A DNA stretch of 64,000 nt from Flavobacteriales bacterium. GTDB taxonomy: Bacteria > Bacteroidota > Bacteroidia > Flavobacteriales_D > Sanyastnellaceae. The position numbers and the translations under genes are program-made. The stretch covers positions 1-64,000 of the forward strand of contig PKEB01000006.1 in assembly GCA_002863125.1 (NCBI GenBank), given 5' to 3'. The notes under the pieces were generated by a model. That model saw nothing but the letters and a program-made list of their open reading frames with translations, was not told the DNA's origin and did no database searches. Positions 1,428 through 47,666 of this stretch are shown piece after piece (positions within the stretch are counted from its first letter, which is position 1; the number at the start of each line of letters is the position of its first letter).

Positions 1428-1499
1428 TTCTCCATTCCGGTCGGGGTGCAGCTCATGCACCTCTGAAAACCTTTGCCTGTTGCGAACGGTTTAAATGGC

Positions 1500-3488
1500 A
1501 TGTTCCGCATTGCATGCCTTCTTCTTGTCGTGGCCAGCTCAGCACCCGTTTGGAGTCAATCGGATGAACCCGCCGTCCAAACGTGGAACGAAATCCTGCT
1601 CGAGGCCATTCGCAATGACCTCGCCCGCCCCAACGTGCACGCCCGCAACCTGCACCACTTCAGCACCGGCCAGTATGCGCTTCAGTTGCTGTCTGAAGGC
1701 TTGGACGGTACCGCCGTCGATGCTGCGGTCGCCTGGCCGGATGCACCTGACGGGATTGGCACCTGGTCGCCAGGTACGATTGGACACCGGGACATGATGG
1801 CCGCCTACGCCTTCCGCTTCATTTCACTGCGGTACGCTGCTTCGCCGGACTGGGGCGAAACCCTTGGGCTGCTGGTCAATGCATTCATCGATGCCACCGG
1901 CACCATCCCCAACAATTTGCTCAACAACTCTGAAGCTGCGGCCTACGGAAACAGCGTGGCGGAGGCCATCAATGCTGCTTACCTCGCGGACGGCGCCAAC
2001 CAGCAAGGCAACTACGCCAACACCTGTTACGAACCGGTCAACGATCCGCTCGATGTCACAGAAGAGGGCCAGTGCAACTTCACGCTCGAAGACCCCAACC
2101 GCTGGCAGCCCCTCTCCTTCGGTGGCAGCTTCGTGGACCAAGCCGGCAACGAGACCTTCCAGGACGTCGTACCATTCAGCGGCGCCAATTGGGGCAACGT
2201 CGCCCCTTTTGCCCTCCAGGCGAGCGATGCGAGTTACCTCGAGCGCGACGGCTGTACGTACCCCGTGTACTTCGATCCCGGCCCGCCTTCGTTGTTGGGT
2301 GAGGCGGACGAGAGTTTGTACAACTGGCAAAACGGTTTTGCCCTCGTCGCCCGCTGGCAAACCCAACTCAACATGGAAGACGGCGTCACGGTCGACATCA
2401 GCCCGCGCAGCATCGGCAACCTCAACGCTGATCCCGATTTCCCCGACTACCTCTACAACCAAGTCGAGGGCGGCGATATCGGCCCCGGCCACGCCTTCAA
2501 CCCCGTGACGGGCATGCCATACGAGCCGGAACAGGTTTTGCGTGGCGACTTCACCCGGGTGCTGGCCGAGTTCTGGGCAGACGGCCCGGATTCCGAAACG
2601 CCACCCGGCCACTGGTTCACCATCCTGAACGAAGCGACGGCTCACCCTGATTTTGATTGGCGGTGGAACGGCCGCGGGGAGCCGCTCAGCCACGACGCGT
2701 GGTTGGCGCGGGCGTATCGGCTGCTCGGTGGCGCGATGCACGATGCGGCGATTGCCACGTGGAGCATTAAGGGGTACTACGATTTCGTGCGGCCGATTTC
2801 GGCGATTCGGTTCATGCTGACCAAAGGCCAGTGCTCAGATCCGGCGCTGGGGAATTTTGACCCGCAGGGCGTGCCGCTCATCGAAAACGTCTTTGAAATC
2901 ATCGAGGCAGGTGACCCCATTTTGGCCGAAGAACCCCAAGCGCTCGGCATGGTCAAGGTGCACCAGTGGGTGCCCAATCCCGATACGGGCGTCCCGGCTT
3001 TCGAATGGCGCACGGGCTGCTCGTGGTGGCCGTACCAGCGACCGACATTTGTAACGCCGCCGTTTGCCGGCTATGTGAGCGGCCACTCGACCTACTCGCG
3101 GGCCGCGGCCGAAGTCTTGGCGCACGCCACCGGCTCGGCGTATTTCCCCGGTGGCCTTGGTACATTCGAAGTGGAAGCCAACAACTTCCTAGCGTTTGAA
3201 TCGGGTCCCTCCGAATCGTTCACCTTGCAGTGGGCCACCTACCGCGATGCGGCCGACCAATGTGCCCTCAGCCGCATCTGGGGCGGCATCCACCCGCCCA
3301 TGGACGACATCCGCGCCCGGGTCATTGGCTCGCAAGTTGCCGACCTCGCCATTGCGGCGTACGAGGAAGAAGCGGCATCGCTGCTCAACCCCGTATTCTG
3401 CGCCGAAGACATCGATGCCAACGGCAACGTGGGCACAGGCGACCTCCTCCTCCTGCTATCGAAGTACGGGGAGGATTGCGAGGAATGA
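1500..3488 (+). CDS. Secreted vanadium-haloperoxidase/PAP2-superfamily protein with C-terminal dockerin-like tag
   Basis: A 662-residue secreted protein. The ATG at 1500 starts a signal peptide ending VWSQ; an in-frame TTG at 1473 adds only nine polar residues. The core resembles vanadium-dependent haloperoxidase-related PAP2 proteins: FVRPISAIRF in the middle, SGHSTYSRAAAEVL at about residues 526-540 and RIWGGIHPPMDD near 590 carry the oxyanion-binding His and Arg residues of the superfamily. Activity could be halide oxidation or phosphate-ester hydrolysis. The protein does not end in a T9SS domain. Its last 29 residues (3399-3485) are a single dockerin-like loop bracketed by Cys, also found on the GH81 enzyme and on the nuclease at 45903. 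It is transcribed toward the GH81 gene, which ends 24 nt away. Confidence 0.8.
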   Translation: MFRIACLLLVVASSAPVWSQSDEPAVQTWNEILLEAIRNDLARPNVHARNLHHFSTGQYALQLLSEGLDGTAVDAAVAWPDAPDGIGTWSPGTIGHRDMMAAYAFRFISLRYAASPDWGETLGLLVNAFIDATGTIPNNLLNNSEAAAYGNSVAEAINAAYLADGANQQGNYANTCYEPVNDPLDVTEEGQCNFTLEDPNRWQPLSFGGSFVDQAGNETFQDVVPFSGANWGNVAPFALQASDASYLERDGCTYPVYFDPGPPSLLGEADESLYNWQNGFALVARWQTQLNMEDGVTVDISPRSIGNLNADPDFPDYLYNQVEGGDIGPGHAFNPVTGMPYEPEQVLRGDFTRVLAEFWADGPDSETPPGHWFTILNEATAHPDFDWRWNGRGEPLSHDAWLARAYRLLGGAMHDAAIATWSIKGYYDFVRPISAIRFMLTKGQCSDPALGNFDPQGVPLIENVFEIIEAGDPILAEEPQALGMVKVHQWVPNPDTGVPAFEWRTGCSWWPYQRPTFVTPPFAGYVSGHSTYSRAAAEVLAHATGSAYFPGGLGTFEVEANNFLAFESGPSESFTLQWATYRDAADQCALSRIWGGIHPPMDDIRARVIGSQVADLAIAAYEEEAASLLNPVFCAEDIDANGNVGTGDLLLLLSKYGEDCEE

Positions 3489-3512: not shown

Positions 3513-6248
3513 CTAGAGGCAGGTATCCCCGAACGCCGCCAGCAATTGAAGCAAGTCATTGACGGTGACCACACCGTCATCGTCCAAGTCGCCGGCACAA
3601 CCGTCATCGACGATGATGTTGCAGCTGCCATCGTCCATGGTCGCTAACGGGTTGTAGTTCGACGCGCCCGAATACGTGCAGCCCAATACATCTTCCTCAT
3701 CGCAGATGCCGTTGTTGTTGAAGTCGTGCTCGCACACGTCATCGCCACCGCCGCCGTTATCGCCGCCACCGCCTGAACCGGGACAGGCATCGCAGCTGTT
3801 GTAGCAGACCACGCCGATGTCGGCGTTGCCGCTGGCTGGCACTTCGAAATAGCGGTTGGTGAATTCGCCCGTCGTCAGCGTGCATGCGGCATCAGCGACC
3901 GGATCGAACAATTCCCCGAACGCCCAGTCGCCGTTCACAAACTTGTACTCAATCGAACCCGGTGCCAAATCCAACACCACTTCATAGACGCCGTCACCGT
4001 CGTCATCGCTCATGGGCGTGCACGTACCACACCACCCGTCGATGCTTCCGCCCGTCACATATACGCCGCCTTGGAGCGTTTCCTGGGACATGTCCACTTC
4101 AAAGCGCACGCCGTCCACAGTTGTGCCGCCGCCGTCATCACCACCGCCGTCTCCGCCACCGCCGCCGCCGCTTCCACCGAGCGCCTCCTCGATGCCCGGC
4201 CGCGTAGCGAGCCAGTACAAGGTGTTCGTCTCCGAATTGCCATCGTCGTAGCCGGTGAGGGTTTGGCATTCGTTCCAACCCGCCGCCGGATCTATCACGG
4301 CATGGGCCATGTACACAAAGCCTTTCCAACCTTCACCAATACTCGGATTGTCCAAGGCTGTCACGAGCACCGGGTACTCCTCCTCTACCCATGCCGGCTC
4401 GAGCAGTTCCTCCGTGATGGGCGTAAACGGTAGCATCTGGATGCAGTGGATGAACTCTGTGTTAGCGCCAAAGAACGTCCCGTAATCAACCTTGGTGCTC
4501 CACAACACCCCAACCACCTTGTTCGAGGCGAAGGGCTCATCGTAGATGCCGTCGTTGGAATCCACCTGCCAGTATTGCTGGGTGGAGCGGATTTCAGTGG
4601 CCAGCATCAACCGGCCTAAATCCCGCAAGCGATCGTTGCCCGTGGCCAAACCATACAGGTACACGCTATACCAGGCATTGACCGCTTCTGAGGTGCTCTC
4701 TTGGTTGCGTCCGTCGCCAAACTCGAAGAGGCCCGATGCCCACGAATGGCCCACAAACCAGTCCTTGTTGCGCATGAAGGTGTAATGCGGATCGGACGCG
4801 GCGGGATTGGCCAAATTGCGCACGAGGTGCATGACCTCATCGCCCCACTGCGCCACCCACGTGGGGTTGTCTTTGGCCATGCACGCCGCAGCATACAGGA
4901 AGTAGCCGTAGTGGAAGTGGTGGTCGTTGTATACTCCTTGATCAAAGCTACCACCGGACGTCGTGATGACGCCGCCCCACGTTTCGTCGTAGCGCAGCGG
5001 GTCGCTATTGGTGGCGTTGAGCCACGGGTGCAGAGCGTTGCCGAGGTTGGTTCGGTAATTAGCGGCCAGCGCAGTTTCGTTGAGCTCGTCGGCAATGACG
5101 GCCATGCGGCCCACTGCGGCGAGTTGCTTGGCCCCGAAGTACGTGTCGTTGGCGTTGATGGGCCAATTGGCATCGGCCGCCAAAGCGTCCCGGACGTCTT
5201 GTTCCAATGAAGGTGCGATGCCACTAGGCGACTCGAAGCCGATGGTCGTGAGCGCCTCGGTCATGTGCCACGCGCCCCCGAGCACAAGGGGCAAGTTGCC
5301 CTTGATTGTGGGGTACGCCGTTCCGGCCTCGGGCGTTTCCTGCAAGACCGGCAGGTGATGCGGCAAGGCGCACTGCAATGCCTGCGTCGCCGACCCTCCA
5401 CTCATGCTCGCGAGCTCCCAATCAAACACCAATTCGGCTTGATCGCCAGTGGCCGTGGCGCTCACCGTTCCTCCCGTGGGATAGGCATCGGAATGCGCAT
5501 CGAGCAAAGTGGTCGAAGTGGCCACGTTGTTCCCGCCAACCACGGCCATGCGCAGCACACCGTTCCACTGGCTCGGACCCTGCAACGTGTTGTTGCCGGT
5601 GTAGGTCAATGCGATAGGTTCTGAAGCGTACAGCACCCACGTCTGGCCGTTGTTGAGCACCAGTTCAAACCGGCTATCTGTAATGCTCGCATTGGGGCTG
5701 GCACCGTTGATGCTCAAGATGGCGTGAATGGTGCTTACCTCCGGGGTTAGTCCGGAGTACACGGTGGTCAGGTAGGGCATGCCGCGAACGATGGGTGCTT
5801 GCAACGTTCCGGCACCGGCGCTCCACTCCACAGTCACCGAAAGCGGATCGTAGTCAACCACCTGGTGCGCCGCGAGAGATTCGCTGGTACCGAGTGTCCA
5901 ATTCGACACGAATGAAGAAATCACGAACGTCTCGCTGGTTACCATGCCCGGCATGCACCCGCTCAACCCGTCGGTCGAGCACTTGACGATGTACGGCAGC
6001 GAATTGGCTACACCCGTTCCTTCGTTGAGCACGAAATTCTCCCACCACGCATTGGTCGGCAAAGGTGCATCGGTGGAGGCCCAACGGGCCGTAGGCGCTT
6101 GCACTGAAGTGATGAGGGCAAACGGCGGCGCTTGGGTACTCAGCGGCACATCATCCAACAACGCAATGGGCTGTTGGGCTCGTGTGTTTTGGAAAACGAA
6201 ACATAAAGCCGTTACGGCTAAAACAAGGCGAATTTGGTGGAGCATCAT
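3513..6248 (-). CDS. GH81 endo-beta-1,3-glucanase with C-terminal dockerin-like tag
   Basis: A 911-residue secreted glycoside hydrolase family 81 enzyme that cuts beta-1,3-glucan (laminarin, curdlan, fungal wall glucan). Signal peptide 1-25 ends TRAQ; the start at 6248 is chosen over a TTG at 6290. The catalytic half shows YNDHHFHYGYF (Asp at 442), then DWFVGHSWASG and NQESTSEAVNAWY (Glu 517 and 521), all hallmarks of GH81. A Gly-rich linker, encoded around 4140-4185, is followed by a beta-sandwich module (about 730-830) resembling starch-binding-like domains. A short Cys-rich piece with GASNYNP and DDGSC comes next, and the protein ends in a 28-residue Cys-bracketed dockerin-like loop (3516-3599). 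It probably acts with the GH16/GH3/GH5 genes 25-40 kb away. Confidence 0.92.
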   Translation of the reverse strand: MMLHQIRLVLAVTALCFVFQNTRAQQPIALLDDVPLSTQAPPFALITSVQAPTARWASTDAPLPTNAWWENFVLNEGTGVANSLPYIVKCSTDGLSGCMPGMVTSETFVISSFVSNWTLGTSESLAAHQVVDYDPLSVTVEWSAGAGTLQAPIVRGMPYLTTVYSGLTPEVSTIHAILSINGASPNASITDSRFELVLNNGQTWVLYASEPIALTYTGNNTLQGPSQWNGVLRMAVVGGNNVATSTTLLDAHSDAYPTGGTVSATATGDQAELVFDWELASMSGGSATQALQCALPHHLPVLQETPEAGTAYPTIKGNLPLVLGGAWHMTEALTTIGFESPSGIAPSLEQDVRDALAADANWPINANDTYFGAKQLAAVGRMAVIADELNETALAANYRTNLGNALHPWLNATNSDPLRYDETWGGVITTSGGSFDQGVYNDHHFHYGYFLYAAACMAKDNPTWVAQWGDEVMHLVRNLANPAASDPHYTFMRNKDWFVGHSWASGLFEFGDGRNQESTSEAVNAWYSVYLYGLATGNDRLRDLGRLMLATEIRSTQQYWQVDSNDGIYDEPFASNKVVGVLWSTKVDYGTFFGANTEFIHCIQMLPFTPITEELLEPAWVEEEYPVLVTALDNPSIGEGWKGFVYMAHAVIDPAAGWNECQTLTGYDDGNSETNTLYWLATRPGIEEALGGSGGGGGGDGGGDDGGGTTVDGVRFEVDMSQETLQGGVYVTGGSIDGWCGTCTPMSDDDGDGVYEVVLDLAPGSIEYKFVNGDWAFGELFDPVADAACTLTTGEFTNRYFEVPASGNADIGVVCYNSCDACPGSGGGGDNGGGGDDVCEHDFNNNGICDEEDVLGCTYSGASNYNPLATMDDGSCNIIVDDGCAGDLDDDGVVTVNDLLQLLAAFGDTCL

Positions 6249-6259
6249 GCTGTAATATA
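6249..6259 (-). promoter_or_regulatory. TAnnTT box 5 nt before the GH81 start
   Basis: TATATT (6259-6254 on the minus strand) is followed by five bases and then ATG. It matches the Bacteroidota -7 element at a spacing that would put transcription initiation at or next to the start codon. Confidence 0.4.
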
Positions 6260-6281
6260 CCTGAAATGCCGATACCCTGCT

Positions 6282-6293
6282 TAACTTCAACTC
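6282..6293 (+). promoter_or_regulatory. TAnnTT box 6 nt before the metalloprotease start
   Basis: TAACTT (6282-6287) is followed by six bases and ATG at 6294. The 45-bp gap to the divergent GH81 start contains both boxes, so the two genes may be transcribed from back-to-back leaderless promoters. Confidence 0.4.
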
Positions 6294-30636: not shown

Positions 30637-33600
30637 TTAACGTTCGAAGTAAATCAATCGGGTGACATCGCCTTCATGCGCCTGAACCCGCACGACGTGG
30701 TAGCCTGCTGAATAAACGCTGGTAGGCAATTCAAACGGTTGGCCGCATTGGATGCGTTGGGTCGCCACCAACCGTCCGGACAGGTCCGAAACGCTCACTG
30801 TGACCGTTTCGTTGGTGTCTACTCCGAGGATGTTCAGCACGCCCGATGAAGGATTGGGCACGACCTTGATCTCAAAGGACGCATCGAGTTCCGGTTGGCT
30901 CATGCTCAGCTCCCCAAATGCTTGGATTTCCCACAGTGAATGGCCCCATTCGGTCGCCCGTTCAATGCCTTCCACTTGGATGTAGCGGGCGTCGACAGCC
31001 GGGTAGAACAAATCGTTCCCGCCGTCGGCCTCCGTCTCGTGAACGAGCATCGTCCAATTGACCCCGTCGAGCGACACGCGCAGCTTGTACTCGCTGGAGT
31101 AGGCGGTTTCCCATGCCAATGCAATGACATCCAAGGTGTAGACATCGAGCAAATCCACCGTGATGGTTTGCGGGTCCGAAAAGGCCGAACTCCACCGCGT
31201 AGCGAAGTTACCGTCCACCGCCTTGGCGGCTGGGTATTCCCAGCTCTCGGCACTCGTTGCCGTGACAGGCTTCAGGTAACACAGGTTGGGCACTAATTCC
31301 GACGGGTCTTCGACATCCACATCCACCTCGAGGCTGTTGTTGGTTTCGATCAGTTCGTCCCACGCACCTTCACCGTCAACGGTCGCTTGAACGGTGAAGC
31401 TGTCATATGACCCCGGTACCCAGAATGGCGAACCATCGGGGCCCTCGGTTGCACCGAGCAAGATGCACCCGCCCGCACGCAGCGTATCTGTCAAGGTGGA
31501 CGTGCTGCTCACTTGAACGCCGTTCACCGCAAACGTCAATTCCAACGGTGTGCCGGGAAGCGCGTCGCCAGTGCCCGCGTTTTTGACCAACCCGAGGAAC
31601 AGGACCGAGTCCGTTGGCATAGGGAAGCGGGGGTAATGGTAAATCCGCGTCACCTCAAAGTCCGGCGCCGGCGCTACTTCTTCCAATGTGAATGCCACAT
31701 TCAGCTCCAAGGCATCGGAGGCACCCCCAACGTGGGCCACGTAATCACCCGTTGCTACTGCATAGGCTGCAGTCGCTTCATCGTAGTAGAACAGGTCGTT
31801 GGCCGTGAGTTCAAAGTTGACCGTGGCGGTCTCGCCTGGCTGCAGTTCCACTTTCTCGAAGCCTTTCAACTCCTTTTTGGGCATCCACACATCGGTGGCA
31901 TTGTTCTCCATATACAACTGCACCACTTCCTCGCCCATGACGTCACCCGTGTTGGTGACGTCCACGCTGAATTGCACTGGTTCGCCCACCGGGAGCGCCG
32001 GCCCGTTGACCGTGAAATTGCTGTAGGCAAACGTGGTGTAGCTGAGACCAAATCCAAAGGCAAACTGCGGCGTCAGGTCCAATTCGTCATAGTACCGGTA
32101 GCCGCAATTGTAATCGTCCGAGAAACTGTCGTTCCACGCTGGCATTTGCGCGTCATCCACCGGCATGGTCACCGGCAGCTTTCCGCTGGGGTTGTATTCG
32201 CCGTAGAGCACGTCGGCAATGGCGTTGCCTCCTTCCATCCCAGGGTAGAAGGCGTACAAAAAGCCGCGAGCATTGTCAATAGCCGAAGGGATGGAACAAA
32301 TGCCACCGCTCTTCAACACGACAACGACGTTGGAATTCTCTTCAGCCAAGGCGTTGATCAAATCCTGTTGGACACCGGGCAATTCCACGGAATCATTCGT
32401 GCGGTCCACCGGTCCGGGCGGATAGTTTTCCCCTTCTTGGGTTTGATCCAGTCCCCCAACGAAAATTACATAGTCGGCTGCTGCAGCGACGTCACGTGCC
32501 GCTTGAAAGCCTGAGGTATCCGTGCTGTTGATATCGCAGCCGTTCGCCCAGAGCACTTGCTGAGCTCCGATGCGATTGACCAATCCCACATAAGGACTTA
32601 CGGCGTACGGCGGGTCCACCCAACTGCTGCCGAATCCGTCGAGCTGTGCCACTTGGGTGCTCGGTCCGACCAACGCCACGGTCATGCCATCATCTGACAA
32701 CGGCAGGATGTCGCCCTCGTTTTTGAGCAAGACAATGGCCTCCCGGCCTGCTTCGCGTGCGAGCTGCTGGTGCTCGGGGACGTTGGCGCCCGTGAAGGGA
32801 TTTCCGACCGGGAAATTGTCCATCATGCCGACCATGTACTTGGTCCGCAGCACGGGGCGCACCGCGGCATCCAAATCCGCATCGGTGATGTCGCCCGAAG
32901 CATACAACTCCTCGAGGTGGGCTTCGTACTCCGATTCATCGACGTCCATTTCCAAGTCGCAGCCGGCCTTGAGGGCCTTTTCCGCATCCCAGACCGAACC
33001 CCAATCCGACACCACATAGAACGGATAACCCCAGTGGTCCCGCAAGATTTCGGTGAGCAGTTCCGTACTCTCCGCGCTCTTGTTCCCGTTCACCAAGTTG
33101 TAGGCATTCATAACCGATAACGCACCTGCGTCTTGCATCACGCGACGGAAATTGTACCCGTAATGCTCCATCAACTGGCGCGTGCTCATGAGGTGATTCA
33201 CCGCGTGACGATTTTCCTGCTTGTTGACGCCGTTGAAGTGCTTGATTGTCGCCACGACCGGTTCGGTCTGAATACCGCGCACCAGCGGGATGTTCATGTG
33301 CGCGCACAGGAAAGGGTCCTCCCCACCTGTCTCCGGGCTGCGCCCATTGCGCGGATCGCGGCACAAGTCCAAAGCGGGACCGAGCTGCTGGTGTTTGCCG
33401 TAGGCGTGAAACTCCCGTCCCATGGCCCGGCCGATGTCGAACATCATCTCCTTGTTCCAAGACGCGGCCATCGCAATACCCGTCGGAAAAGAAGTCGCAT
33501 CCACAAACCGCACCCCATGCGGACCGTCCGACATCACGAATCCCGGGATGCCAAGCACCTCGTTGTCCGATGTCGTCCAGAAGGAATTCCGTCGAATCTG

Positions 33601-33726
33601 GTTCATTTTCTGGAGGTGGGACATCTGGTCGATCTTCTCCTGAATCAGGTCTTCGAGCGCATTTTGTCCGTTCAATGGAAGGCACATCATGAGGCCCGCA
33701 AGGGCTAGAAGGGAAAAACGAAGCAT
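30637..33726 (-). CDS. Secreted GH3 beta-glucosidase with CARDB, F5/8C and T9SS domains
   Basis: A 1029-residue secreted enzyme. Signal peptide 1-20, then a GH3 catalytic unit: GFVMSDGPHGVR, GPALDLCRDPRNGRSPE, TIKHFNGV and VVSDWGS with nucleophile Asp241. The GH3 C-terminal domain and a fibronectin-III-like domain (about 585-670, FAFGFGLSYTTF before it) follow. Then come a CARDB domain (about 690-805, with IETNNS), an F5/8 type C discoidin-like carbohydrate-binding domain (about 815-945) and a T9SS type A sorting domain. It probably trims beta-glucan oligosaccharides from the non-reducing end. It is divergent from susC and is the left edge of the glucan locus. Confidence 0.93.
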   Translation of the reverse strand: MLRFSLLALAGLMMCLPLNGQNALEDLIQEKIDQMSHLQKMNQIRRNSFWTTSDNEVLGIPGFVMSDGPHGVRFVDATSFPTGIAMAASWNKEMMFDIGRAMGREFHAYGKHQQLGPALDLCRDPRNGRSPETGGEDPFLCAHMNIPLVRGIQTEPVVATIKHFNGVNKQENRHAVNHLMSTRQLMEHYGYNFRRVMQDAGALSVMNAYNLVNGNKSAESTELLTEILRDHWGYPFYVVSDWGSVWDAEKALKAGCDLEMDVDESEYEAHLEELYASGDITDADLDAAVRPVLRTKYMVGMMDNFPVGNPFTGANVPEHQQLAREAGREAIVLLKNEGDILPLSDDGMTVALVGPSTQVAQLDGFGSSWVDPPYAVSPYVGLVNRIGAQQVLWANGCDINSTDTSGFQAARDVAAAADYVIFVGGLDQTQEGENYPPGPVDRTNDSVELPGVQQDLINALAEENSNVVVVLKSGGICSIPSAIDNARGFLYAFYPGMEGGNAIADVLYGEYNPSGKLPVTMPVDDAQMPAWNDSFSDDYNCGYRYYDELDLTPQFAFGFGLSYTTFAYSNFTVNGPALPVGEPVQFSVDVTNTGDVMGEEVVQLYMENNATDVWMPKKELKGFEKVELQPGETATVNFELTANDLFYYDEATAAYAVATGDYVAHVGGASDALELNVAFTLEEVAPAPDFEVTRIYHYPRFPMPTDSVLFLGLVKNAGTGDALPGTPLELTFAVNGVQVSSTSTLTDTLRAGGCILLGATEGPDGSPFWVPGSYDSFTVQATVDGEGAWDELIETNNSLEVDVDVEDPSELVPNLCYLKPVTATSAESWEYPAAKAVDGNFATRWSSAFSDPQTITVDLLDVYTLDVIALAWETAYSSEYKLRVSLDGVNWTMLVHETEADGGNDLFYPAVDARYIQVEGIERATEWGHSLWEIQAFGELSMSQPELDASFEIKVVPNPSSGVLNILGVDTNETVTVSVSDLSGRLVATQRIQCGQPFELPTSVYSAGYHVVRVQAHEGDVTRLIYFER

Positions 33727-33745
33727 GGGTTAATTTTTGGTCAGT

Positions 33746-33753
33746 CGAATATA
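33746..33753 (-). promoter_or_regulatory. Candidate -7 box of the GH3 gene
   Basis: TATATTCG on the minus strand, 19 nt before the GH3 start. It differs from TAnnTTTG by one base. A TTG lies 13 nt further upstream, a shorter spacing than is usual. Confidence 0.35.
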
Positions 33754-34012
33754 ATTTACTCCTCCGCAAGCAGCGCATGAATCGAGCGGACATTGAGGCC
33801 CACGAAACGGCACGTGCGCACTTCGGTTTCGCAGATGCGGAGGACGAGGTTCATGGGCGCAGGTTTTCACCGGCAAGGTAATGCGACGAAGGCGCCCAAA
33901 CGAAATGAATCTAAATCGATTTTTCGGCACACCCTGTCGCAGTTACACACCTCATTTTTACATGCATTACCCGCCCTGTGCAACCTGGGTTCCTTTTGTC
34001 ATCGAAATCGTG

Positions 34013-34020
34013 TACTTTCG
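34013..34020 (+). promoter_or_regulatory. Candidate -7 box of susC
   Basis: TACTTTCG lies 61 nt before the susC start, with a TTTTG 14 nt upstream. It would give a 5' leader of about 50 nt, unlike the genes with boxes next to the start codon. Confidence 0.35.
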
Positions 34021-34081
34021 CCCAAATTGTGGTTAAGCGCAGCTCAATGAAGAGGCCGCCACACCTTCTAACCCAAATCCC

Positions 34082-37000
34082 ATGCTTCCGAAACTCATTC
34101 GAATGCAATCCAGTGTCCTGGCGGTATTGGCATTGCTATTGCTCGGCGGATTGACCCCGCTGATTGCCCAGGTTGACATCACCGGCTCCATCACCGATGG
34201 CGCGACCGGTGAGCCGCTCATCGGCGCGACCGTGATTCAAAAAGGAACCACGAACGGCACTAACGCCGGTGTCGATGGTTCGTTCACGTTGACCGTAGAA
34301 TCGCTTCCCACAGAAGTGATTTTCAGCTTCGTCGGTTACGAGGCGCAAATCAAAGAGATTACCAACACGCAGCCCTTGGCGATTGTGCTGGTGGAAGACG
34401 CCGAACTCGTCGGCGAAGTGGTCGTCGTAGGGTATGGCCGACAGAAGAAACGAGTCTCGACGGGATCCATTGCCAAAGTCACTGCGGAAGACATCGAGGG
34501 CATTCCCGTGCCGGACGTCATTTCGACGCTGGAAGGCCAAACTTCCGGTTTGCTTGTCAATGAATCGAGCGGACAACCCGGTGCTGGCAAGTCCATACTC
34601 GTTCGCGGTATTAGCACGAATGGTGACAACTCGCCACTTTTCATCGTAGATGGACTGCAACTTGGCAACATCGACAACATCAACCCTGCCGACATCGAGT
34701 CTATTGATGTATTGAAGGATGCGGCCTCCAGTGCCATCTACGGTGCCCGTGCAGCAAACGGGGTCGTCATCATCACCACCAAGAACGGCAGCGGTAAGGA
34801 CGAAGGAACCATCAGCTACCAGACGAGCTACTTGAATTCTCAGCCGTGGAAGCTCCCCGAGATGCTCGGTGCGGAAGATTACGTCATGCTCATCCGAGAA
34901 AAGTTTGCCAACAGCAACCAGACCTCTGCACTCGATGTACTGGGTTTCCCCAACATGGGCGACGAATTGACGGCCAACACGAACTGGATGGATGAAATCT
35001 TCAATCCAGCAACCGTGGTGAATCACCGTTTGACGGCCACCACCAAGAACTCCTACCTCTCGGTCGATTACTGGGACCAGACGGGAGTCATTGGTGGGGA
35101 GAAGTCCAACTACACACGTTACTCGGTGCGCTATAACAGCTCCAAGAAGTACAAGGACTTCATCACCATCGGCCAAAATCTCAACCTCAACCGTACCGAC
35201 AACAACAATATCGGAACGAACAGCGCGTTCGGCGGGGTACAATCTGATGCCTTTGCCTACGATCCCCTGACGCCGGTCTACGATGATGTCGGGCAATACG
35301 GCTTCGCACAGTCCCCATGGGTGCAAAAGGAATACATCAATCCTCTCAGCCGATTGTGGCTAATTAATGGCGATGGCAAATCGGACCAAATGATCGGAAA
35401 CTTCTTCCTCGAAGCCGAACTCTTTGACGGTTTCAGTGTCAAAACGGACATCGGCTTTGACCTGAACTGGTGGGATTACCGAAGCTTCACCCCGACCTAT
35501 GAATTCCACCCTGCCGCGCAAAACCTGACCAACGACGTGAGCCAAGGTTCTGGAAACTTCCAAGGCATCCAGTGGGAAAACACGGCGCACTACACACGCT
35601 CCAAGGACAAGCACAATTTTGATCTCCTCGCCGGCACATCGTACCGGGCCAACGACTTCCGACAAGTCGGCGGCTCAACTTCAGAACTACCGATTGACAA
35701 TCAGTTCGACCCCAACTTCCAGTACCTTGATGCTGGCCAAGACACCTTAGACAATACTTTCGGCGGAGCGAACGTACACTACGCGCTGATAAGCACGTTC
35801 GGACGTGTGCTGTACAACTACGATGAGAAATACCTCTTCTCTGCAACGCTTCGCCGCGATGGCTCGTCAAACTTCGGCCCGGGCAACCAGTTCGGTGTAT
35901 TCCCTTCCGCCTCGGTCGGTTGGGTTGCCTCCAAAGAAGGGTTCATGGAAACCATCGAGCCGGTTAGCTTCCTGAAGCTGCGCGCTTCATGGGGGATCAA
36001 TGGCTCGGACCGCATCTCGCCGCTGAGCTACGTTAGCCGCATTGAACGCGTATTCACCTACGCCTTCGGTTCGGAAAGCCAAACCCTGAACACCGGTACG
36101 GCCCTCGCCACGCCGCCCAACCCCAATGTGAAATGGGAGGAGAGTGAGCAAATCGATATCGGTGTCGAACTCGGAATGTTTGACGACAAACTCACCGTTG
36201 AAGCGGACTTCTACCGAAAGACCACCAAAGACCTGCTCATGACGCAGCAGATTCCGGGCTACATCGGTGCCACCAACAACCCAACTTCCAATCTCGGTGA
36301 GATTCGCAACCAAGGGATTGACCTGGTCTTGGGCTACCGCGCCGGTCAAGGCGATTTGAAGTGGAACACCCAGCTGACTTACACCCACTTCAAGAATGAA
36401 GTGATCAGCGTCGCCGGTGAAACCGGTTACCTCAACGGTTGGGGCTGGCCCGTTCGCAACACGGCCATTACACGTATGACCGAAGGGTACGAAGTAGGCC
36501 ACTTCGTGGGGTACCAAGCGGACGGTATTTTCCAAAACCAAGGCGAAATCTTCAGCCACGTAAACGCCGAAGGTAGCCTCCTCCAGCCCAATGCTGCTCC
36601 TGGGGACATCCGATTCCTCGATACCAACGGCGACGGCACCATCAACTCCGATGACATCGCGGACATCGGCAGCCCTTGGCCCAAGCACATCATCGGCTTG
36701 AGCGCCAGCGTCACATACAAAGACTTCTACGCAAGCGCCATCTTCAACGCCCAAATCGGCCACGAGATCTACCGCACGTACGAGCGTTCAGACGTCACGT
36801 TCTCCAACTACCAGAGCTTCTGGTTGGGCCGTTGGACGCCGGAAAACCCCAGCACGGAGTTGCCGCGTTTGACATCAACGGACCCCAACAACAACCAGCG
36901 TCCTTCGGATTTCTACCTCGAAAACGGAAACTTCCTCCGCCTGCGCAACCTGCAAATCGGCTGGAACGTTCCCGCGAACATCTTGGAGAAATTCAACATG

Positions 37001-37168
37001 AAGGAGGCCAAAATTTACCTCACGGGTACCAACCTCTTCACCTTAACCAAGTACCGCGGATTTGACCCCGACATCGGGACCAGTGGCTGGATCTTGGATA
37101 CCGGCATCGACAAAGGTTTCTACCCGAACAACCGCTCCATCGGTGCGGGCCTCAACGTTTCATTCTAA
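34082..37168 (+). CDS. susC: SusC/RagA-type TonB-linked outer-membrane transporter (beta-glucan locus)
   Basis: A 1028-residue outer-membrane glycan importer. Signal peptide to about residue 30 (LIAQ), then a CarboxypepD_reg-like domain (GSITDGATGEPLIGATV), the SusC-specific VVVVGYGRQKK segment, a plug domain with VLKDAASSAIYGARAANGVVIITTK (a SusC hallmark, here paraphrased from its flanking residues) and a barrel ending NVSF. The barrel is closed by the SusD lipoprotein encoded 12 nt downstream. It imports oligosaccharides using TonB energy; the surrounding GH3, GH5 and GH16 genes point to beta-1,3-glucan. The ATG at 34082 begins the signal peptide with MLPKLIRMQSSVL. Confidence 0.95.
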   Translation: MLPKLIRMQSSVLAVLALLLLGGLTPLIAQVDITGSITDGATGEPLIGATVIQKGTTNGTNAGVDGSFTLTVESLPTEVIFSFVGYEAQIKEITNTQPLAIVLVEDAELVGEVVVVGYGRQKKRVSTGSIAKVTAEDIEGIPVPDVISTLEGQTSGLLVNESSGQPGAGKSILVRGISTNGDNSPLFIVDGLQLGNIDNINPADIESIDVLKDAASSAIYGARAANGVVIITTKNGSGKDEGTISYQTSYLNSQPWKLPEMLGAEDYVMLIREKFANSNQTSALDVLGFPNMGDELTANTNWMDEIFNPATVVNHRLTATTKNSYLSVDYWDQTGVIGGEKSNYTRYSVRYNSSKKYKDFITIGQNLNLNRTDNNNIGTNSAFGGVQSDAFAYDPLTPVYDDVGQYGFAQSPWVQKEYINPLSRLWLINGDGKSDQMIGNFFLEAELFDGFSVKTDIGFDLNWWDYRSFTPTYEFHPAAQNLTNDVSQGSGNFQGIQWENTAHYTRSKDKHNFDLLAGTSYRANDFRQVGGSTSELPIDNQFDPNFQYLDAGQDTLDNTFGGANVHYALISTFGRVLYNYDEKYLFSATLRRDGSSNFGPGNQFGVFPSASVGWVASKEGFMETIEPVSFLKLRASWGINGSDRISPLSYVSRIERVFTYAFGSESQTLNTGTALATPPNPNVKWEESEQIDIGVELGMFDDKLTVEADFYRKTTKDLLMTQQIPGYIGATNNPTSNLGEIRNQGIDLVLGYRAGQGDLKWNTQLTYTHFKNEVISVAGETGYLNGWGWPVRNTAITRMTEGYEVGHFVGYQADGIFQNQGEIFSHVNAEGSLLQPNAAPGDIRFLDTNGDGTINSDDIADIGSPWPKHIIGLSASVTYKDFYASAIFNAQIGHEIYRTYERSDVTFSNYQSFWLGRWTPENPSTELPRLTSTDPNNNQRPSDFYLENGNFLRLRNLQIGWNVPANILEKFNMKEAKIYLTGTNLFTLTKYRGFDPDIGTSGWILDTGIDKGFYPNNRSIGAGLNVSF

Positions 37169-37180
37169 AGCTCAGAACTC

Positions 37181-38821
37181 ATGATTAAGCACCTACGCAA
37201 AGTAACGCTCCTTCTCGCCCTCGCTTTGAGCTTTGGAGCCTGTAACAAAGATCGACTCCAAGTGGACCCTGTGAACCAGGTCCTGTCAAGCACCTACTAC
37301 CAAACGGAACTGCACGTGTCCGAAGCACTCATTGGTGCCTACGACCCGGTCGGTTGGACCATGGCCTATGGGCAGTGGATTTCCCCTGTGATGTTTGGTG
37401 AGATTCGCTCGGATAATGCCAACGCCGGTGGCGACCCCTCCAACAACGACCAGCCCGGATGGCAGGAATTCGATGATTTCACGGAAACCAATACCAACAC
37501 CGTACTTCACCCCCTCTACCGCCGCAGCTACATCGGAATCAACCGGGTGAACAGCCTGTTGAGCAACACGGACACAAGTGACCCCGCGTTGTCTTCCGAT
37601 GCAGTGCAATTGTACCTCGCGGAGGCAAAATTCCTACGGGCGTTTTACCACTTTGAAGTGTTCCGTCATTTCGGTCCCATCCCGGTTATCACCGAGGAAT
37701 TGGCCCCCGACGAAGTGAGTTTGCAGCGCAATACCCTCTCCGAGGTGATGCAGCAAATCATCGATGACTGCGAGGATGCGGCAGCGTTACTTCCCGTCAT
37801 GCCGGTTTCAGGCCAGGAAGGACGTGCCACGAAAGGTGCCGCCTTGGCACTGATGGGCAAGGCCTACCTCTACTGGGCAGACCTAAGCGGCGACGATGCC
37901 ACGAAATTTGATGCTGCAGCATCGGCGCTGCAAGAAGTGGTGGACTTGGGCGCGTACGAATTGGTGGACGATTTGGAATCGCTTTACACCCAAGGCACAC
38001 GCAACACCACCGAAGCCGTTTTTGAAATACAGCACAACCCCCTCTACACCAGTGATTGGGGTTGGTTTGAAGGAATCGACGGCAACGGTATTATTCAATT
38101 GTGCGGCATCCGCGGCTTGTGCGCAGATCACCCTACCTTGGAAGCGGGCTGGGGATTCCTGTCTGTTACAGAAGGATTGTACAACCATTTCTTGGATGAC
38201 GATCATTTCCGCCGGGACGTGGCTATTTCGTCGGAGGCTACATTGGAGCAAGACATGATCGATGCAGGACTTTCCTGTGACCCCATCGTCGACGCGACCC
38301 AGAATAACCCCATCGACTACACGGGCTACTTCCAAGCCAAGTACCAAAACTTCAAAGCGTTTGCCGGTACCAACATCAACGGCGGCAACGAGCACTTGAC
38401 GAAGGCGCAGAACACGCATTACATCCGGTACGCTGATGTCCTGCTGATGCTGGCTGAGGCCTTGCACCGCGGGTCGGGCGACGACGGCTCTGCCATGGCT
38501 CACATTGATGCCGTCCGCGAGCGGGCTGCTGGACCGGGCGACAATGCCGGAACATTCCGTACCGCATCGCAGTTGATGGCAGATGAGGGCATGAGCCTGC
38601 TCGACGTCATTTGGTACGAACGCCGTGCGGAGTTCGCTTGCGAAGGCGACCGCTGGACCGACCTCGTGCGCTCAGGACGCGCGGAATCTAGCCTGTTCGT
38701 TGGCGACGGTGACAAAGAAGGTAATTTCGACGACGAGAGCCTCTGGCTTCCCGTTGCACTGGAAGAGACTGTCATCGCCAACGGCATGACCACGTACCCG
38801 GATGCTTCCCTTTTTGATTGA
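37181..38821 (+). CDS. susD: SusD/RagB-family glycan-binding lipoprotein
   Basis: A 546-residue surface lipoprotein (lipobox FGAC at about 17-20). NQVLSSTYYQTELHVSEALIGAYD is the SusD N-terminal tetratricopeptide start, YLAEAKFLRAFYHFEVFRHFG the central helix pair, and IRYADVLLMLAEALHR plus IWYERRAEFACEGDRWTDLVRSG near the end are SusD signatures. It covers the SusC pore and binds the glycan. It begins 12 nt after susC and is followed after 29 nt by the PKD lipoprotein gene, forming one operon. Confidence 0.95.
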   Translation: MIKHLRKVTLLLALALSFGACNKDRLQVDPVNQVLSSTYYQTELHVSEALIGAYDPVGWTMAYGQWISPVMFGEIRSDNANAGGDPSNNDQPGWQEFDDFTETNTNTVLHPLYRRSYIGINRVNSLLSNTDTSDPALSSDAVQLYLAEAKFLRAFYHFEVFRHFGPIPVITEELAPDEVSLQRNTLSEVMQQIIDDCEDAAALLPVMPVSGQEGRATKGAALALMGKAYLYWADLSGDDATKFDAAASALQEVVDLGAYELVDDLESLYTQGTRNTTEAVFEIQHNPLYTSDWGWFEGIDGNGIIQLCGIRGLCADHPTLEAGWGFLSVTEGLYNHFLDDDHFRRDVAISSEATLEQDMIDAGLSCDPIVDATQNNPIDYTGYFQAKYQNFKAFAGTNINGGNEHLTKAQNTHYIRYADVLLMLAEALHRGSGDDGSAMAHIDAVRERAAGPGDNAGTFRTASQLMADEGMSLLDVIWYERRAEFACEGDRWTDLVRSGRAESSLFVGDGDKEGNFDDESLWLPVALEETVIANGMTTYPDASLFD

Positions 38822-38850
38822 TTATAACAACCATTCATAATTCTAATCCA

Positions 38851-40551
38851 ATGAACCTTAACAAATTCATTTACGGTCTCGGACTCACCCTGTTGGGCGG
38901 TCTCGTTTTGACCGGATGCCGGAAGGACGATCCGGAGGAACCCGGCGATACCGTCGCAACGTTCCAATACGAAATCAGCGCAGGCAACTGGGCCGAGGTC
39001 ACCTTCACCAACTACTCGCAAAACGCAAGCTCGTACGCTTGGGACTTCGGCGATGGCAACACCAGCACTGAAGAGAGCCCCGTGCACACGTACGCAGCGG
39101 GTGGTACTTATAATGTCACACTTACGGCTACAGGCGCTGCAGGTTCGGCCTCACGTACAGAGACCATCAACATCGTTGACCCCAACACCGCTGGGATGTT
39201 CTTGTCAGGCGCAGAGGGTAAGACATGGTACCTCGACCGAGAAGCGATTGCCATGGGCATCGGCCCCGGACCGGGTGATGTTTCTTGGTGGTCTTTCGGT
39301 GGCGTAACCCCCTTGGGTGAGCGTCCGTGCATCCTCGATGATGCATACACCTTCAATCCCGACGGAACGTGGGAAAAGAACACCGGCGGAACCTTGTTTG
39401 TCGATTCAGATGCCAACGGCGGATGGCTCGGAAACAGCTTCGAAACATGCTACGACGAGACCACGCCTGACCTCTTTGTTGGTCCCAATGGCGAGGACTT
39501 GAGCGCCTTTGCAGACGGAGGTGACTACACTTACAGCTTCGACCCAGCTCAAGGCATGATCTCCATCGAGGGATTCGGCGCCTACATTGGACTGGCTCAG
39601 AAGACGAACGACGGCGACAGCTACATCCCCGTTTCAACGAAGATGTACACCGTCCTCAACATGGAGACAGGTGCGAATTCAGATCGTATGGAAATCGCTT
39701 TGGTCATGCCTGACGGCGCGGCTTGGACGTTCTACCTCGTGCACTATCACGATGCCAACGACCTTCCTCCCATTCCGATCGCAGGTCCTGCAGCGAGCTT
39801 CAGCTACGTCAAAGAAGGAACCACAGTGACTTTCACCAACACGTCGAATAACGCTACATCTGCGAACTGGGACTTTGGTGATGGCAACTTCAGCACCGAC
39901 TACAACGCGGTTCACACCTACGCGGCGGACGGCGATTACACGGTGACCTTGACGGTCAGTGACGACAACTTCGCCACCGATGAAGCCACAGAAACCATCT
40001 CTATCAGTTCAGCCGTATTCACTGCTGCAGACCTCTCAAGTGCAGAGGGCAAGGTGTGGCGATTGGACGGTGAAGGCTCCTACATCGTCGGACCTGCTCA
40101 AGGAAGCGGCGAATGGTGGGGCGGTTTGGACGCTGCCGGCGTCGTGGAGCGCTACTGCCAGATGGATGATGAATTCATCTTCTACGACGATGGAACCTTC
40201 GTTATCGATACACAAGGCGACGTGTGGGCGGAAAGCTACATGGGCGGCAACAACGAATGCCTGACCGATGAGTCATTGGTCGCTCCGTTTGACGTCTTTG
40301 GATCGGGAACGCACGCGTTCACAACAACCGGTGCAGAAATCACCGTCAACGGCCTTGGTGCATACATCGGTTTCAACAAAGCCTCGAACGAAGGTGAATT
40401 ACCAAACGAAGGAACCGGTACGCCAGCGTCAACAATCACCTACGAGGTTTACGAGTACAGCAACAACGATGCTGAGCGCTTGACCATCACCGTGGATTAC
40501 GGTGAGAACCCAGGTGAAGCCTACTGGACCATTCGTTTGATTGCTGAATAA
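38851..40551 (+). CDS. Surface lipoprotein with two PKD plus beta-sandwich units (SusE/F-position glycan-binding protein)
   Basis: A 566-residue lipoprotein (lipobox LTGC). It consists of two similar halves, each a PKD domain followed by an all-beta unit. PKD1 spans about 36-108 with YAWDFGDGNTSTEESPVHTYA; PKD2 spans about 315-388 with NWDFGDGNFSTDYNAVHTYA. The units at 115-305 and 392-566 share LSxAEGKxWxLD near the start, W-rich segments (VSWWSFGG, GEWWGGLD) and a FGAYIG or LGAYIG motif. The third position after SusC and SusD is where surface glycan-binding proteins are encoded, and PKD lipoproteins occur there in laminarin loci. A terminator follows at 40573. Confidence 0.8.
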   Translation: MNLNKFIYGLGLTLLGGLVLTGCRKDDPEEPGDTVATFQYEISAGNWAEVTFTNYSQNASSYAWDFGDGNTSTEESPVHTYAAGGTYNVTLTATGAAGSASRTETINIVDPNTAGMFLSGAEGKTWYLDREAIAMGIGPGPGDVSWWSFGGVTPLGERPCILDDAYTFNPDGTWEKNTGGTLFVDSDANGGWLGNSFETCYDETTPDLFVGPNGEDLSAFADGGDYTYSFDPAQGMISIEGFGAYIGLAQKTNDGDSYIPVSTKMYTVLNMETGANSDRMEIALVMPDGAAWTFYLVHYHDANDLPPIPIAGPAASFSYVKEGTTVTFTNTSNNATSANWDFGDGNFSTDYNAVHTYAADGDYTVTLTVSDDNFATDEATETISISSAVFTAADLSSAEGKVWRLDGEGSYIVGPAQGSGEWWGGLDAAGVVERYCQMDDEFIFYDDGTFVIDTQGDVWAESYMGGNNECLTDESLVAPFDVFGSGTHAFTTTGAEITVNGLGAYIGFNKASNEGELPNEGTGTPASTITYEVYEYSNNDAERLTITVDYGENPGEAYWTIRLIAE

Positions 40552-40572
40552 TCAAGCACATCCCTCCACGAG

Positions 40573-40607
40573 AAAAGGGAATCGGCCATGCGCCGGTTCC
40601 CTTTTTT
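40573..40607 (+). terminator. Intrinsic terminator after the susCD operon
   Basis: AAAAGGGAA-T-CGGC (40573-40586) pairs with GCCG-G-TTCCCTTTT (40592-40605) around CATGC, followed by more T. It is 21 nt after the stop of the PKD lipoprotein gene. Confidence 0.9.
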
Positions 40608-40675
40608 CTTTCCTTGAGTTCCGAGTGGATTTGCAACTGATTCCCTTCCTGCTTACCCACCTATTTGCCCAAAAC

Positions 40676-40712
40676 AAAAAAGGGAACTCGTAAGACACCA
40701 GTTCCCTTTCTT
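40676..40712. terminator. Bidirectional intrinsic terminator between convergent genes
   Basis: AAAGGGAACT and AGTTCCCTTT pair perfectly over 10 bp around an 11-nt loop, with an A-run left and a T-rich run right. It lies 19 nt beyond the GH5 stop codon on the minus strand and 125 nt after the PKD gene. Confidence 0.88.
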
Positions 40713-40730
40713 TTCAAAATGAGTCCCCGC

Positions 40731-43469: not shown

Positions 43470-43504
43470 GTCCTTATGATTAAGTTCGCTAAATTTATGC
43501 GTGT

Positions 43505-45435: not shown

Positions 45436-45675
45436 TCAGGCATCCGCCTTTCCGGGGCGGTGGCGCTCGTTGTGCAGGCGACGACGCGAAGTCATTTGCT
45501 CAAGCTCTTCTCCCCATTCATTCAGATCCTCCGGGTCTTCGGGGTTGTATGAAGGGGGGCGCTTGGCGTGCACATTTTTCAAATCGCGTTTCCGGCCCAT
45601 ACACTCCCAACACCCACCATCATCGCTATGTTCAAGCCCATCGTGCTGGAAAATTGGGTACCTTAGAGCATGCAT
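45436..45675 (-). CDS. Small CxxC-containing protein of unknown function
   Basis: A 79-residue protein starting MHALRYPIFQHDGLEHSDDG. It contains GGCWECMGR, a CxxC pair with a preceding His, and a hydrophilic tail rich in Glu, Arg and Pro (NPEDPEDLNEWGEELEQM). A zinc-binding or redox role is possible. The composition and codon choice look protein-like. Its ATG forms one half of the palindrome ATGCAT shared with the start of the plus-strand ORF at 45670, so at most one of the two may be real. Confidence 0.5.
   Translation of the reverse strand: MHALRYPIFQHDGLEHSDDGGCWECMGRKRDLKNVHAKRPPSYNPEDPEDLNEWGEELEQMTSRRRLHNERHRPGKADA
45659..45669 (+). promoter_or_regulatory. TAnnTT box 5 nt before the small secreted ORF
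   Basis: TACCTT (45659-45664), five bases, then ATG at 45670. Confidence 0.35.
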
Positions 45676-45906
45676 CGCATTCAACCCATGCTTCTCGCGC
45701 TTGTCCTCTTCAGTTGGGCTTTTCCGGCTATTTCTCACGGCCAGGGCATCCACCACTGGGAGCCGGCAATCGAAAACAGGGCAGCACCGAATGCCGTGCT
45801 GCGCGCAATGTGGAGGATCTTCTTCATGCTTCGAAGGTACTGCAGGTTTGGGCGAGGCTCAGTGATTTCGAGCACCAAGGCGAAAAAGCGTATTTTGAGG
45901 TCATGA
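45670..45906 (+). CDS. Small ORF with signal peptide, coupled to the nuclease gene
   Basis: A 78-residue frame opening with MHRIQPMLLALVLFSWAF, a good signal peptide ending SHGQ, followed by GIHHWEPAIENRA and then an Arg-rich, poorly protein-like tail. Its stop TGA overlaps the ATG of the nuclease gene (ATGA). In the nuclease frame the same DNA reads as a well-behaved helix, VEDLLHASKVLQVWARLSDF, so the tail may come from a frameshift in a once longer protein. It is either a small secreted peptide or a decayed gene. Confidence 0.4.
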   Translation: MHRIQPMLLALVLFSWAFPAISHGQGIHHWEPAIENRAAPNAVLRAMWRIFFMLRRYCRFGRGSVISSTKAKKRILRS

Positions 45907-47666
45907 AGGAAGTGAAAACATTAAATCTTGTTGCCCAAGCCGCGTCGTTCTGTGTTGGCGTTTTGATGACCTTTTCACTCGATGCGCAATCCGAAATCAT
46001 CATGGATGGCGTTTTTGACGATTGGGCGAATATCCCCAGTGTCATGGATGGCGATGACCCCGGTGTGATGGATTTGTTGGAAATGAAAGTCGCCAATGAC
46101 GAGACGTACCTCTACGTGTACCTCCGGGTGGCTGAGGAAATCAAATTGGTCGAAGCGCTCATCCCCCACAGCATCTACCTTCAAATTGACACCGATGTGG
46201 ACGCTGCAACGGGCTATGAAGTGCAAGAAGGCTTTGGGTCGGAATTGGGCATTGATTTCGCGGATCACTTCGCCTACTTCAATGTCGATCCCAATGTGGT
46301 CGTGAATTTCTACGACATCGGATTCCATCCAGCACCCACCGTGACAAGCGCAGCGTTCGAATTGGCCATCCGCCGCGATGCTGTCCCCGACGGTGTGCAC
46401 CCGCTGTTCCCGAACAACGAAATTCGCATGCTGTTCCGAGAGACCGTCGGTGGGGATCAACTGCCCAATCTGGGGCAAGAATTCATTTATGCGTTTACGG
46501 AAGACGTTGCGGCCATCGAGCCCATTGCTTTGGCTAAAATGAATCCGATTTCGGTTCGAACATGCGCGTACAATGTGCTTGCCAATGGATTGACGGATGC
46601 CAACCGGCAGCCGCATTTTGAACGGATACTGAAGGCCATTGATGCCGAGGTTTTTCTGTTCAATGAATGCAGCGGGATTGCAGCCGCAACCCTGAAAAAT
46701 CTCCTGGATGCGTGGTTACCCACGGGTACGGCGAGCGGATGGCACACCGTCAAAGACGGCGGCCGCATCACGGCATCCATTTGGCCCATCCTCACTACCT
46801 GGTATGGCATCAGCCGGCAGACGCCTTCCCTCATCGACGTACCGGGCGAACGCGGCGGTCCGATGCTATTCATCAACAGCCACCTGTCGTGCTGCGGGGC
46901 AAACGGCGCCCGGCAAGACCAAGTGGACCAGATGGCCGCTTGGATTACACAAGAAACCGCTGCCGACGGAGACGTACCGTACAACACACCTCTGGTGTAT
47001 GGCGGCGACTTGAATTTAGTCGGATACGCCCAACAGCTGACGACGCTGCTCACCGGTGAGGTTCAGGACGAAGCCACCTATGGTGCAGGCGCCCCCCCTG
47101 ACTGGGATGGTACCGACTGGGCCGATGCACTTCCGCGCCACACCCACGCCCCTCTCTCCTACACATGGCTCAACGAAGCAGAAGGGGACTGGCCACCGGG
47201 ACGGCTGGACTACCTGCTTTACAGCGATGCCGTAATCACCGCTGAACACTCCTTTGTCCTTTACACGGAAGGGTTGCCTGCGGATGCATTGGCCACACAT
47301 GGTTTGCAGGCCAACGACACCGAATCCGCTTCGGATCACCTGCCGGTCGTTACCGATTTTGTAGCCAACGCCCTCCTCAGTACCGACAGCGACGGCGACG
47401 GCGTGAACAATGACGACGAATGGAACGCCGGTACGGACCCCTACAACGCCGACACCGACGGCGACGGATTGACGGACGGACTCGAATTGACCATGGGTGT
47501 GACCGATCCGCTGAACGCCGACTCGAACAACAACGGATGCCCCGATGGCGAAGAAGCACTTGGGGGATGCGACGATGCGTGCGTGGGCGATTTGAACCTC
47601 AACGGAATCGTGGATGTGGGCGACGTGCTCCTGCTATTGGGCAACTTCGGGGTTACCTGTCTGTGA
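45903..47666 (+). CDS. Secreted endonuclease/exonuclease/phosphatase-family protein with C-terminal dockerin-like tag
   Basis: A 587-residue secreted protein. Signal peptide to about residue 29 (LDAQ). Residues 30-195 form a beta-sandwich (MDGVFDDWANIPS, DETYLYVYLRV) seen in front of many Bacteroidota enzymes. The EEP domain (about 205-465) has NVLANGL, LFNECSG (metal Glu), NSHLSCCGANG, GGDLNLVG, RLDYLLYS and SASDHLPVV (catalytic Asp-His). It should hydrolyse phosphodiesters, most simply extracellular DNA or RNA. Calcium-binding thrombospondin type 3-like repeats (DSDGDGVNNDDEW, DTDGDGLTDGLE) follow, then a 28-residue Cys-bracketed dockerin-like tag (47580-47663) at the extreme end. Confidence 0.85.
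   Translation: MKEVKTLNLVAQAASFCVGVLMTFSLDAQSEIIMDGVFDDWANIPSVMDGDDPGVMDLLEMKVANDETYLYVYLRVAEEIKLVEALIPHSIYLQIDTDVDAATGYEVQEGFGSELGIDFADHFAYFNVDPNVVVNFYDIGFHPAPTVTSAAFELAIRRDAVPDGVHPLFPNNEIRMLFRETVGGDQLPNLGQEFIYAFTEDVAAIEPIALAKMNPISVRTCAYNVLANGLTDANRQPHFERILKAIDAEVFLFNECSGIAAATLKNLLDAWLPTGTASGWHTVKDGGRITASIWPILTTWYGISRQTPSLIDVPGERGGPMLFINSHLSCCGANGARQDQVDQMAAWITQETAADGDVPYNTPLVYGGDLNLVGYAQQLTTLLTGEVQDEATYGAGAPPDWDGTDWADALPRHTHAPLSYTWLNEAEGDWPPGRLDYLLYSDAVITAEHSFVLYTEGLPADALATHGLQANDTESASDHLPVVTDFVANALLSTDSDGDGVNNDDEWNAGTDPYNADTDGDGLTDGLELTMGVTDPLNADSNNNGCPDGEEALGGCDDACVGDLNLNGIVDVGDVLLLLGNFGVTCL

Follow-up and report, generated by a model that had tools for sequence, protein, structure and literature searches.

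The C-terminal domain (CTD) of the type IX secretion system (T9SS) is the usual recognition mark of surface and secreted proteins in the Bacteroidota. The stretch of DNA analysed here, a window of 64 kb from a Flavobacteriales bacterium, raises the question of what a different and much shorter C-terminus does on three of its secreted proteins. The initial annotation had claimed that these otherwise unrelated proteins end in one common pattern and that none carries the T9SS type A domain. All three tags were found as claimed, and the hosts are indeed of different folds. A haloperoxidase-like secreted protein (1473..3488, plus strand; VCPO second domain, PF22778 at 36.1 bits, without TIGR04183) has as its C-terminus a single tag (Tag 1, 3399..3485, plus strand) composed of a C-x2-D calcium loop, a DLLLLL helix and the motif YGEDC; its sequence, FCAEDIDANGNVGTGDLLLLLSKYGEDCEE, is followed by the stop of the ORF, with the closing Cys two residues ahead of it. 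A GH81 endo-beta-1,3-glucanase (3513..6290, minus strand; PF17652 and PF03639, with a DDGSC repeat) likewise has a single tag as its final residues (Tag 2, 3516..3602, minus strand; GCAGDLDDDGVVTVNDLLQLLAAFGDTCL, then the stop of ORF 3513-6290), and a GH81 homolog from another genome (L125) is tagged in the same way. The third host is a secreted protein of the exo/endonuclease-phosphatase fold with TSP3 repeats (45549..47666, plus strand, its true start likely near 45939; PF03372 and PF18884), again with a single tag as its final residues (Tag 3, 47580..47663, plus strand; CVGDLNLNGIVDVGDVLLLLGNFGVTCL, then the stop of ORF 45549-47666). Against the profile built from them the three tags score 66.8, 60.3 and 56.7 bits, respectively, by construction.

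The window tags span 28-31 residues, with the closing Cys one or two residues ahead of the stop in all three, and follow the consensus C-x2-D-x-[DN]-x-[DN]-G-x5-D-[LV]-L-x-L-L-x2-[FY]-G-x2-C. A degenerate DNA pattern derived from them matches the window three times, each match being one of the tags, and found nothing in 100 dinucleotide-preserving shuffles of the window. None of the three proteins matches TIGR04183 or PF18962 at E ≤ 1, and none matches the models for T9SS CTD types A, B and C (TIGR04183, TIGR04131, NF033708). No Pfam or NCBIfam model scores over its cut-off on the three tags, the GH81 tag giving a single sub-threshold match to EF-hand_6 (12.6 bits, cut-off 25). GH3, SusC, SusD, a PKD protein and GH5-CBM6 lie at 30640-43532 of the window, a putative polysaccharide (perhaps beta-glucan) utilisation locus. 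The GH3 and GH5 enzymes beside SusC/SusD (30.6-43.5 kb) have T9SS CTDs, and the GH81 enzyme, about 24 kb from this locus, has the tag instead; both marks are thus present on polysaccharide enzymes of the same window.

A search of the source genome (2.27 Mb) with the profile made from the three tags (E ≤ 10) gave 51 units in 41 ORFs. With a second profile, made from 31 units, 53 units were found in the identical 41 ORFs at E ≤ 0.0015, two weaker matches (E 0.22 and E 0.65) being left out. The unit closes 38 of the 41 ORFs (within six residues of the stop in 36 by the first profile, and in C30 and C6 by the second), while in the remaining three it stands after the signal peptide. Single and tandem (two-repeat) forms are both present, two-unit forms accounting for 10 of the 41 ORFs by the first profile. 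Other genomes were sampled, as opposed to censused, by a pattern scan of which the stop codon was no part and in which the last Cys of the unit was required; at least 119 stretches were found, and among the matches listed 97 come from Flavobacteriales records. From 151 ORFs, five in which no unit reached E < 1e-3 were dropped, as was one open at its end; 137 of the 145 complete ORFs left among the matches listed have a unit (E < 1e-3) within six residues of the stop, 82 of them a single unit and 55 two or more. The extreme C-terminal position claimed from the window is borne out by this profile check. Truncation by chance of a two-repeat dockerin was considered as an origin of the tag and rejected, since singles predominate (82 of the 137 among the matches listed) and have a closing Cys pair of their own. 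A crude rule assigns a Sec-like signal peptide to 85 of the 116 tagged ORFs that are complete and to 189 of 636 control ORFs without a tag, some of these perhaps not coding. Three tagged ORFs, of 2045-2979 residues, contain repeats, which we take to be of a type known from surface proteins. Two small proteins, L026 (the source genome's own C10, 54830-55558, minus strand) and L120:4768-5556, consist of a signal peptide, a tag and a lamin tail domain (LTD).

Both profile and structure comparisons relate the tag to dockerins. Among ten modules of the source genome (eight two-unit, two single), the GC-type dockerin NF041540 is listed for seven at E ≤ 10 and exceeds its 29-bit cut-off in two, the tandems L028 (36.0 bits) and L037 (32.7 bits); PF00404 exceeds its cut-off in one (28.9 bits). 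Among the matches listed, 71 of 145 tagged C-termini match NF041540 at E ≤ 0.01. The window tags themselves do not match NF041540 at E ≤ 1, and no match to PF00404 is listed for the three window proteins. Searched against the PDB, the tandem profile finds the dockerin chain 2y3n_B (E 9.2e-11) and the single-unit profile finds the same chain (E 1.5e-10 over two stretches), on which the predicted tandem fold (pLDDT 88) superposes with a TM score of 0.78 and an rmsd of 1.0 Å (E 1.7e-4). The AlphaFold2 model of Tag 2 (mean pLDDT 86.9) shows a loop and one helix (residues 21-30), and a Foldseek search with a 36-residue single model gave seven weak matches (E 3.9 to 9.0), all of them dockerin entries. 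Across 73 singles, positions 1 and 12 of the 12-residue calcium loop (D12, D23) are invariant and position 5 (D16) is nearly so; position 3 of the tag loop is mostly N or D. This agrees with the dockerin pattern of acidic or Asn ligands at positions 1, 3, 5 and 12. The singles of alignment A7 had in addition been selected for a Cys close to their end. The conserved helix reads DLLxLL or DLLxFL.

Judged by the profiles and by the predicted tandem fold, then, the tag unit is probably a dockerin F-hand, and its tandem form is predicted to adopt the dockerin fold. The tandems match both 2y3n and the GC-type dockerin, a family of which the initial annotation made no mention. The single form of the window lies outside the known dockerin families in repeat number, in profile match and in cohesin. 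The GC-type dockerin, whose name implies anchoring by the domain, typically stands at the C-terminus, as the tag does; the tandem tags match it, whereas the window tags differ in having one repeat and no inner FGC. With the cellulosomal dockerins (PF00404; 2y3n) the tags have in common the F-hand calcium loop and helix as well as the profile and fold matches of the tandems, but differ by their single repeat, as opposed to the two F-hands of dockerin type I, by the outer Cys pair, by their non-cellulosomal cargo and by the lack of a Pfam cohesin in the genus. Some cellulosomal dockerins are reported to be closed by an intramolecular clasp, which is not known to involve Cys.

The cysteines of the tag were compared in a set of 205 distinct C-terminal modules that contains related sequences and of which the listed part was found through the closing-Cys pattern; the closing Cys is therefore partly selected in the pattern-scan set, while the first and inner Cys are not. 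Among the matches listed and the genomes searched, 125 of the 131 single modules and 72 of the 73 tandems have the outer pair; the tandems contain two inner Cys in 57 cases, none in 15, three in one and a lone inner Cys in no case. In the source genome and its relatives, where the closing Cys was not required, the flanking pair pointed out in the initial annotation is found in 53 of the 57 singles and in all 17 tandems, which have two inner Cys (nine), none (eight) and never one. Because the outer Cys are nearly always paired and the inner ones occur as a pair or are absent, their co-conservation is, as far as sequence can tell, a pattern of disulfides, with an outer clasp that is kept and an inner one that is gained or lost as a pair. 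The outer Cys would accordingly be joined in a disulfide.

The exclusion of tag and T9SS domain holds well beyond the window. Not one of the 41 tagged ORFs of the source genome overlaps any of its 67 over-cut-off TIGR04183 matches (one has a sub-threshold match of 14.8 bits, away from its end). Among the matches listed, TIGR04183 (E ≤ 0.01) is found in one of 145 tagged C-termini, and TIGR04131 and NF033708 in none at the same threshold; the one exception is, by its tail, almost certainly L086:4377-8000, in which the unit is internal and not C-terminal. Exclusion at one and the same protein end is partly trivial, and homologs were therefore compared for tag versus CTD. Of 28 genomes picked to span tag-rich genera, tag-poor genera and other families, 24 contain matches to the window haloperoxidase, 40 in all, with identities of 39-50 percent. 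Leaving out three of the 40 that are open at the C-terminus, as well as two partial neighbouring ORFs, 37 complete homologs remain, 10 of them ending in the tag. The other 27 all match TIGR04183 (E ≤ 0.01), and none of the 11 tagged proteins (the 10 and that of the window) does; each of the 38 complete haloperoxidases thus has either the tag or the type A domain, none both and none neither. In the 11 the tag begins shortly after the catalytic domain. The complete haloperoxidases of the tag-poor genera g181, g196, g184, g187 and g183 are all of the CTD form, three genomes (G423, G064, G417) have tag and CTD forms as paralogs, and three others (G415, G420, G421) have tagged ones only.

On a tree of 39 catalytic domains (the 37 homologs, that of the window, which sits on a long branch of 1.3, and L161), the tag/CTD label changes four times (four to six in bootstraps), and at least two of the changes are forced by well-supported branches. 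In the FG-GAP/ASPIC family, for which 30 of 72 matches were fetched and one open as well as three partial or duplicate ORFs were left out, the tag is the last element in 3 of the 29 complete homologs obtained; TIGR04183 is matched by 21 of the remaining 26. These homolog counts, like the module counts above, include close relatives and are not independent. Because homologs end in either one, tag and CTD have replaced one another during the evolution of enzymes of one kind. The proposal that the tag marks a second route beside the T9SS domain is supported more directly by this swap, in sequence terms as an alternative to the CTD, than by exclusion alone. The tag, of about 30 residues, and the type A CTD (TIGR04183 / PF18962), of about 70, are unrelated in sequence and share the C-terminal place on homologous secreted enzymes. 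A trade-off of tags for CTDs at the level of whole genomes was also considered and rejected: over 21 genera the densities per Mb of tags and of CTD candidates, the latter being first-look numbers since the scored matches were limited to 78, show no significant anticorrelation (Spearman -0.35, p 0.12).

We suggest, with a probability of roughly 0.58, that the tag is a disulfide-clasped half-dockerin which binds a putative receptor and so stands in for the T9SS tail in delivery or attachment. The tagged proteins would pass the Sec system and fold in the oxidising envelope, where a disulfide from the first to the last Cys would close the single F-hand and its 12-residue loop would bind calcium. 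Loop and helix could then dock on a receptor at or in the outer membrane, and such docking would replace the delivery and attachment that the type A CTD gives to the homologs. The simplest way across the outer membrane, and to a presumed surface location, would be docking onto an exported protein or onto an outer-membrane shuttle. The unit lies near the mature N-terminus of L026/C10 and of L120, neither of which has a CTD. A binding module would be expected to occur in this way, and these copies, few as they are, speak for a module that binds irrespective of its position rather than for a translocation signal tied to the C-terminus. A more far-reaching version, in which a 28-residue disulfide-clasped half-dockerin and a dedicated outer-membrane receptor or shuttle form a family-wide, cohesin-independent address system, repeatedly swapped with the CTD on dozens of enzymes and adhesins per genome, we regard as tentative and somewhat doubtful.

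As to the partner, the initial annotation had raised the prospect of a cohesin-like protein, which was not found: the Pfam cohesin PF00963 is absent at E ≤ 0.1 from all 13 genomes of the genus and even at E ≤ 1 from the source genome. Over cut-off it occurs in 5 of 61 genomes of the family and does not track the number of tags, being present in 2 of the 36 genomes with at least 20 tag units and in 3 of the 25 with fewer. A classical cellulosome was thus rejected, as no Pfam cohesin follows the tag, and the partner may be a divergent cohesin or another receptor. For freshwater Planctomycetes, a non-cellulosomal cohesin-dockerin complex has been proposed in the planctosome model (PMC6461901), according to which dockerins would assemble secreted enzymes and a protein with a lamin tail domain takes part. 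A protein with an LTD besides signal peptide and tag (L026) is present here too; cohesins are annotated in the planctosome (PMC6461901), whereas here none tracks the tag.

Three other explanations were considered. The tag might be a T9SS signal class beyond CTD types A, B and C, read by the translocon or a dedicated shuttle, with any later docking optional, an explanation that we hold to be unlikely though deserving of attention. Its stand-in for the type A CTD in homologs and its place at the extreme C-terminus are what such a signal would show, TIGR04183 proteins are present in all 61 genomes of the family, and there is precedent in the three CTD classes already described (PMC10202324) and in the PorP-like anchors for type B and the shuttle proteins described in PMC9143113 and PMC12618676; a term search of PMC12618676 turned up neither dockerin nor type C. 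Yet the tag has no sequence likeness to a CTD, and a few of its copies are N-terminal. Records of Phycisphaerae, which are not known to have a T9SS, contain dockerin-like units as well, clear in L090 and weak in L197.

We consider it improbable that the tagged proteins stay periplasmic, with the tag docking to an envelope component and no export for want of a CTD. The tagged forms do lack the CTD and are rich in Sec-like signal peptides by the crude rule given above, but their homologs bear the export domain, one tagged protein is an endo-glucanase, and the three very long tagged ORFs contain repeats presumably of surface proteins. Little probability is likewise given to a partner-free role as a C-terminal cap stabilised by calcium and a disulfide: such a cap would agree with a small folded unit predicted with high confidence and with the failure to find a partner among Pfam cohesins, and is harder to reconcile with the occurrence of the tag on unrelated folds, its exchange with the CTD, the conserved DLLxLL or DLLxFL helix and an expansion concentrated in one family.

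This expansion is lineage-specific. In twelve other members of the genus the search found 34 to 58 units per genome (E ≤ 0.001), and of seven genomes from other families of the order six have none and one has a single unit at the same threshold. Within the family the tag is present in 57 of 61 genomes and in 21 of 21 genera (E ≤ 1e-6), with 0 to 86 units per genome; the four genomes without it all belong to genus g181, and 36 of the 61 have 22 to 86 units. A phylum-wide draw, in which the best 20 candidates per genome were scored, found the tag in 3 of 395 genomes: the source genome, one member of its family and one order-mate with one unit. Records titled Euryarchaeota (L191) and Deltaproteobacteria (L175) were considered as signs of a wider spread and rejected; since their tails have the flavobacterial DDGSC context, they are probably mis-binned contigs.

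The frequency of the tag bears on how exoproteomes are predicted. In the source genome the 41 tagged ORFs and the 67 over-cut-off CTD matches are of the same order of frequency, and predictions based on CTDs overlook the tagged proteins. The pairs of tagged and CTD-bearing homologs make the function of the tag directly testable. Dockerins are here spreading without a recognisable cohesin, in possibly the smallest form of a working dockerin. Already known are the domain family, named in NCBIfam, and the proposal of a non-cellulosomal cohesin-dockerin system (PMC6461901). Among open-licence PMC papers we found none on dockerin tags replacing T9SS domains and none under the name GC-type dockerin; what seems to be new is the Cys-clasped single unit, together with its expansion throughout the family and the exchange with CTDs.

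A Cys-free F-hand with the approximate pattern P-[DY]-x-[DN]-x-[DN]-G..DLL..L..FG follows closely after the signal peptide in otherwise different proteins: L042 (residues 43-65; the source genome's own C1:58808), L046 (own C4:79839), L110, L151 and L180. It may represent a separate, N-terminal class of tag module.
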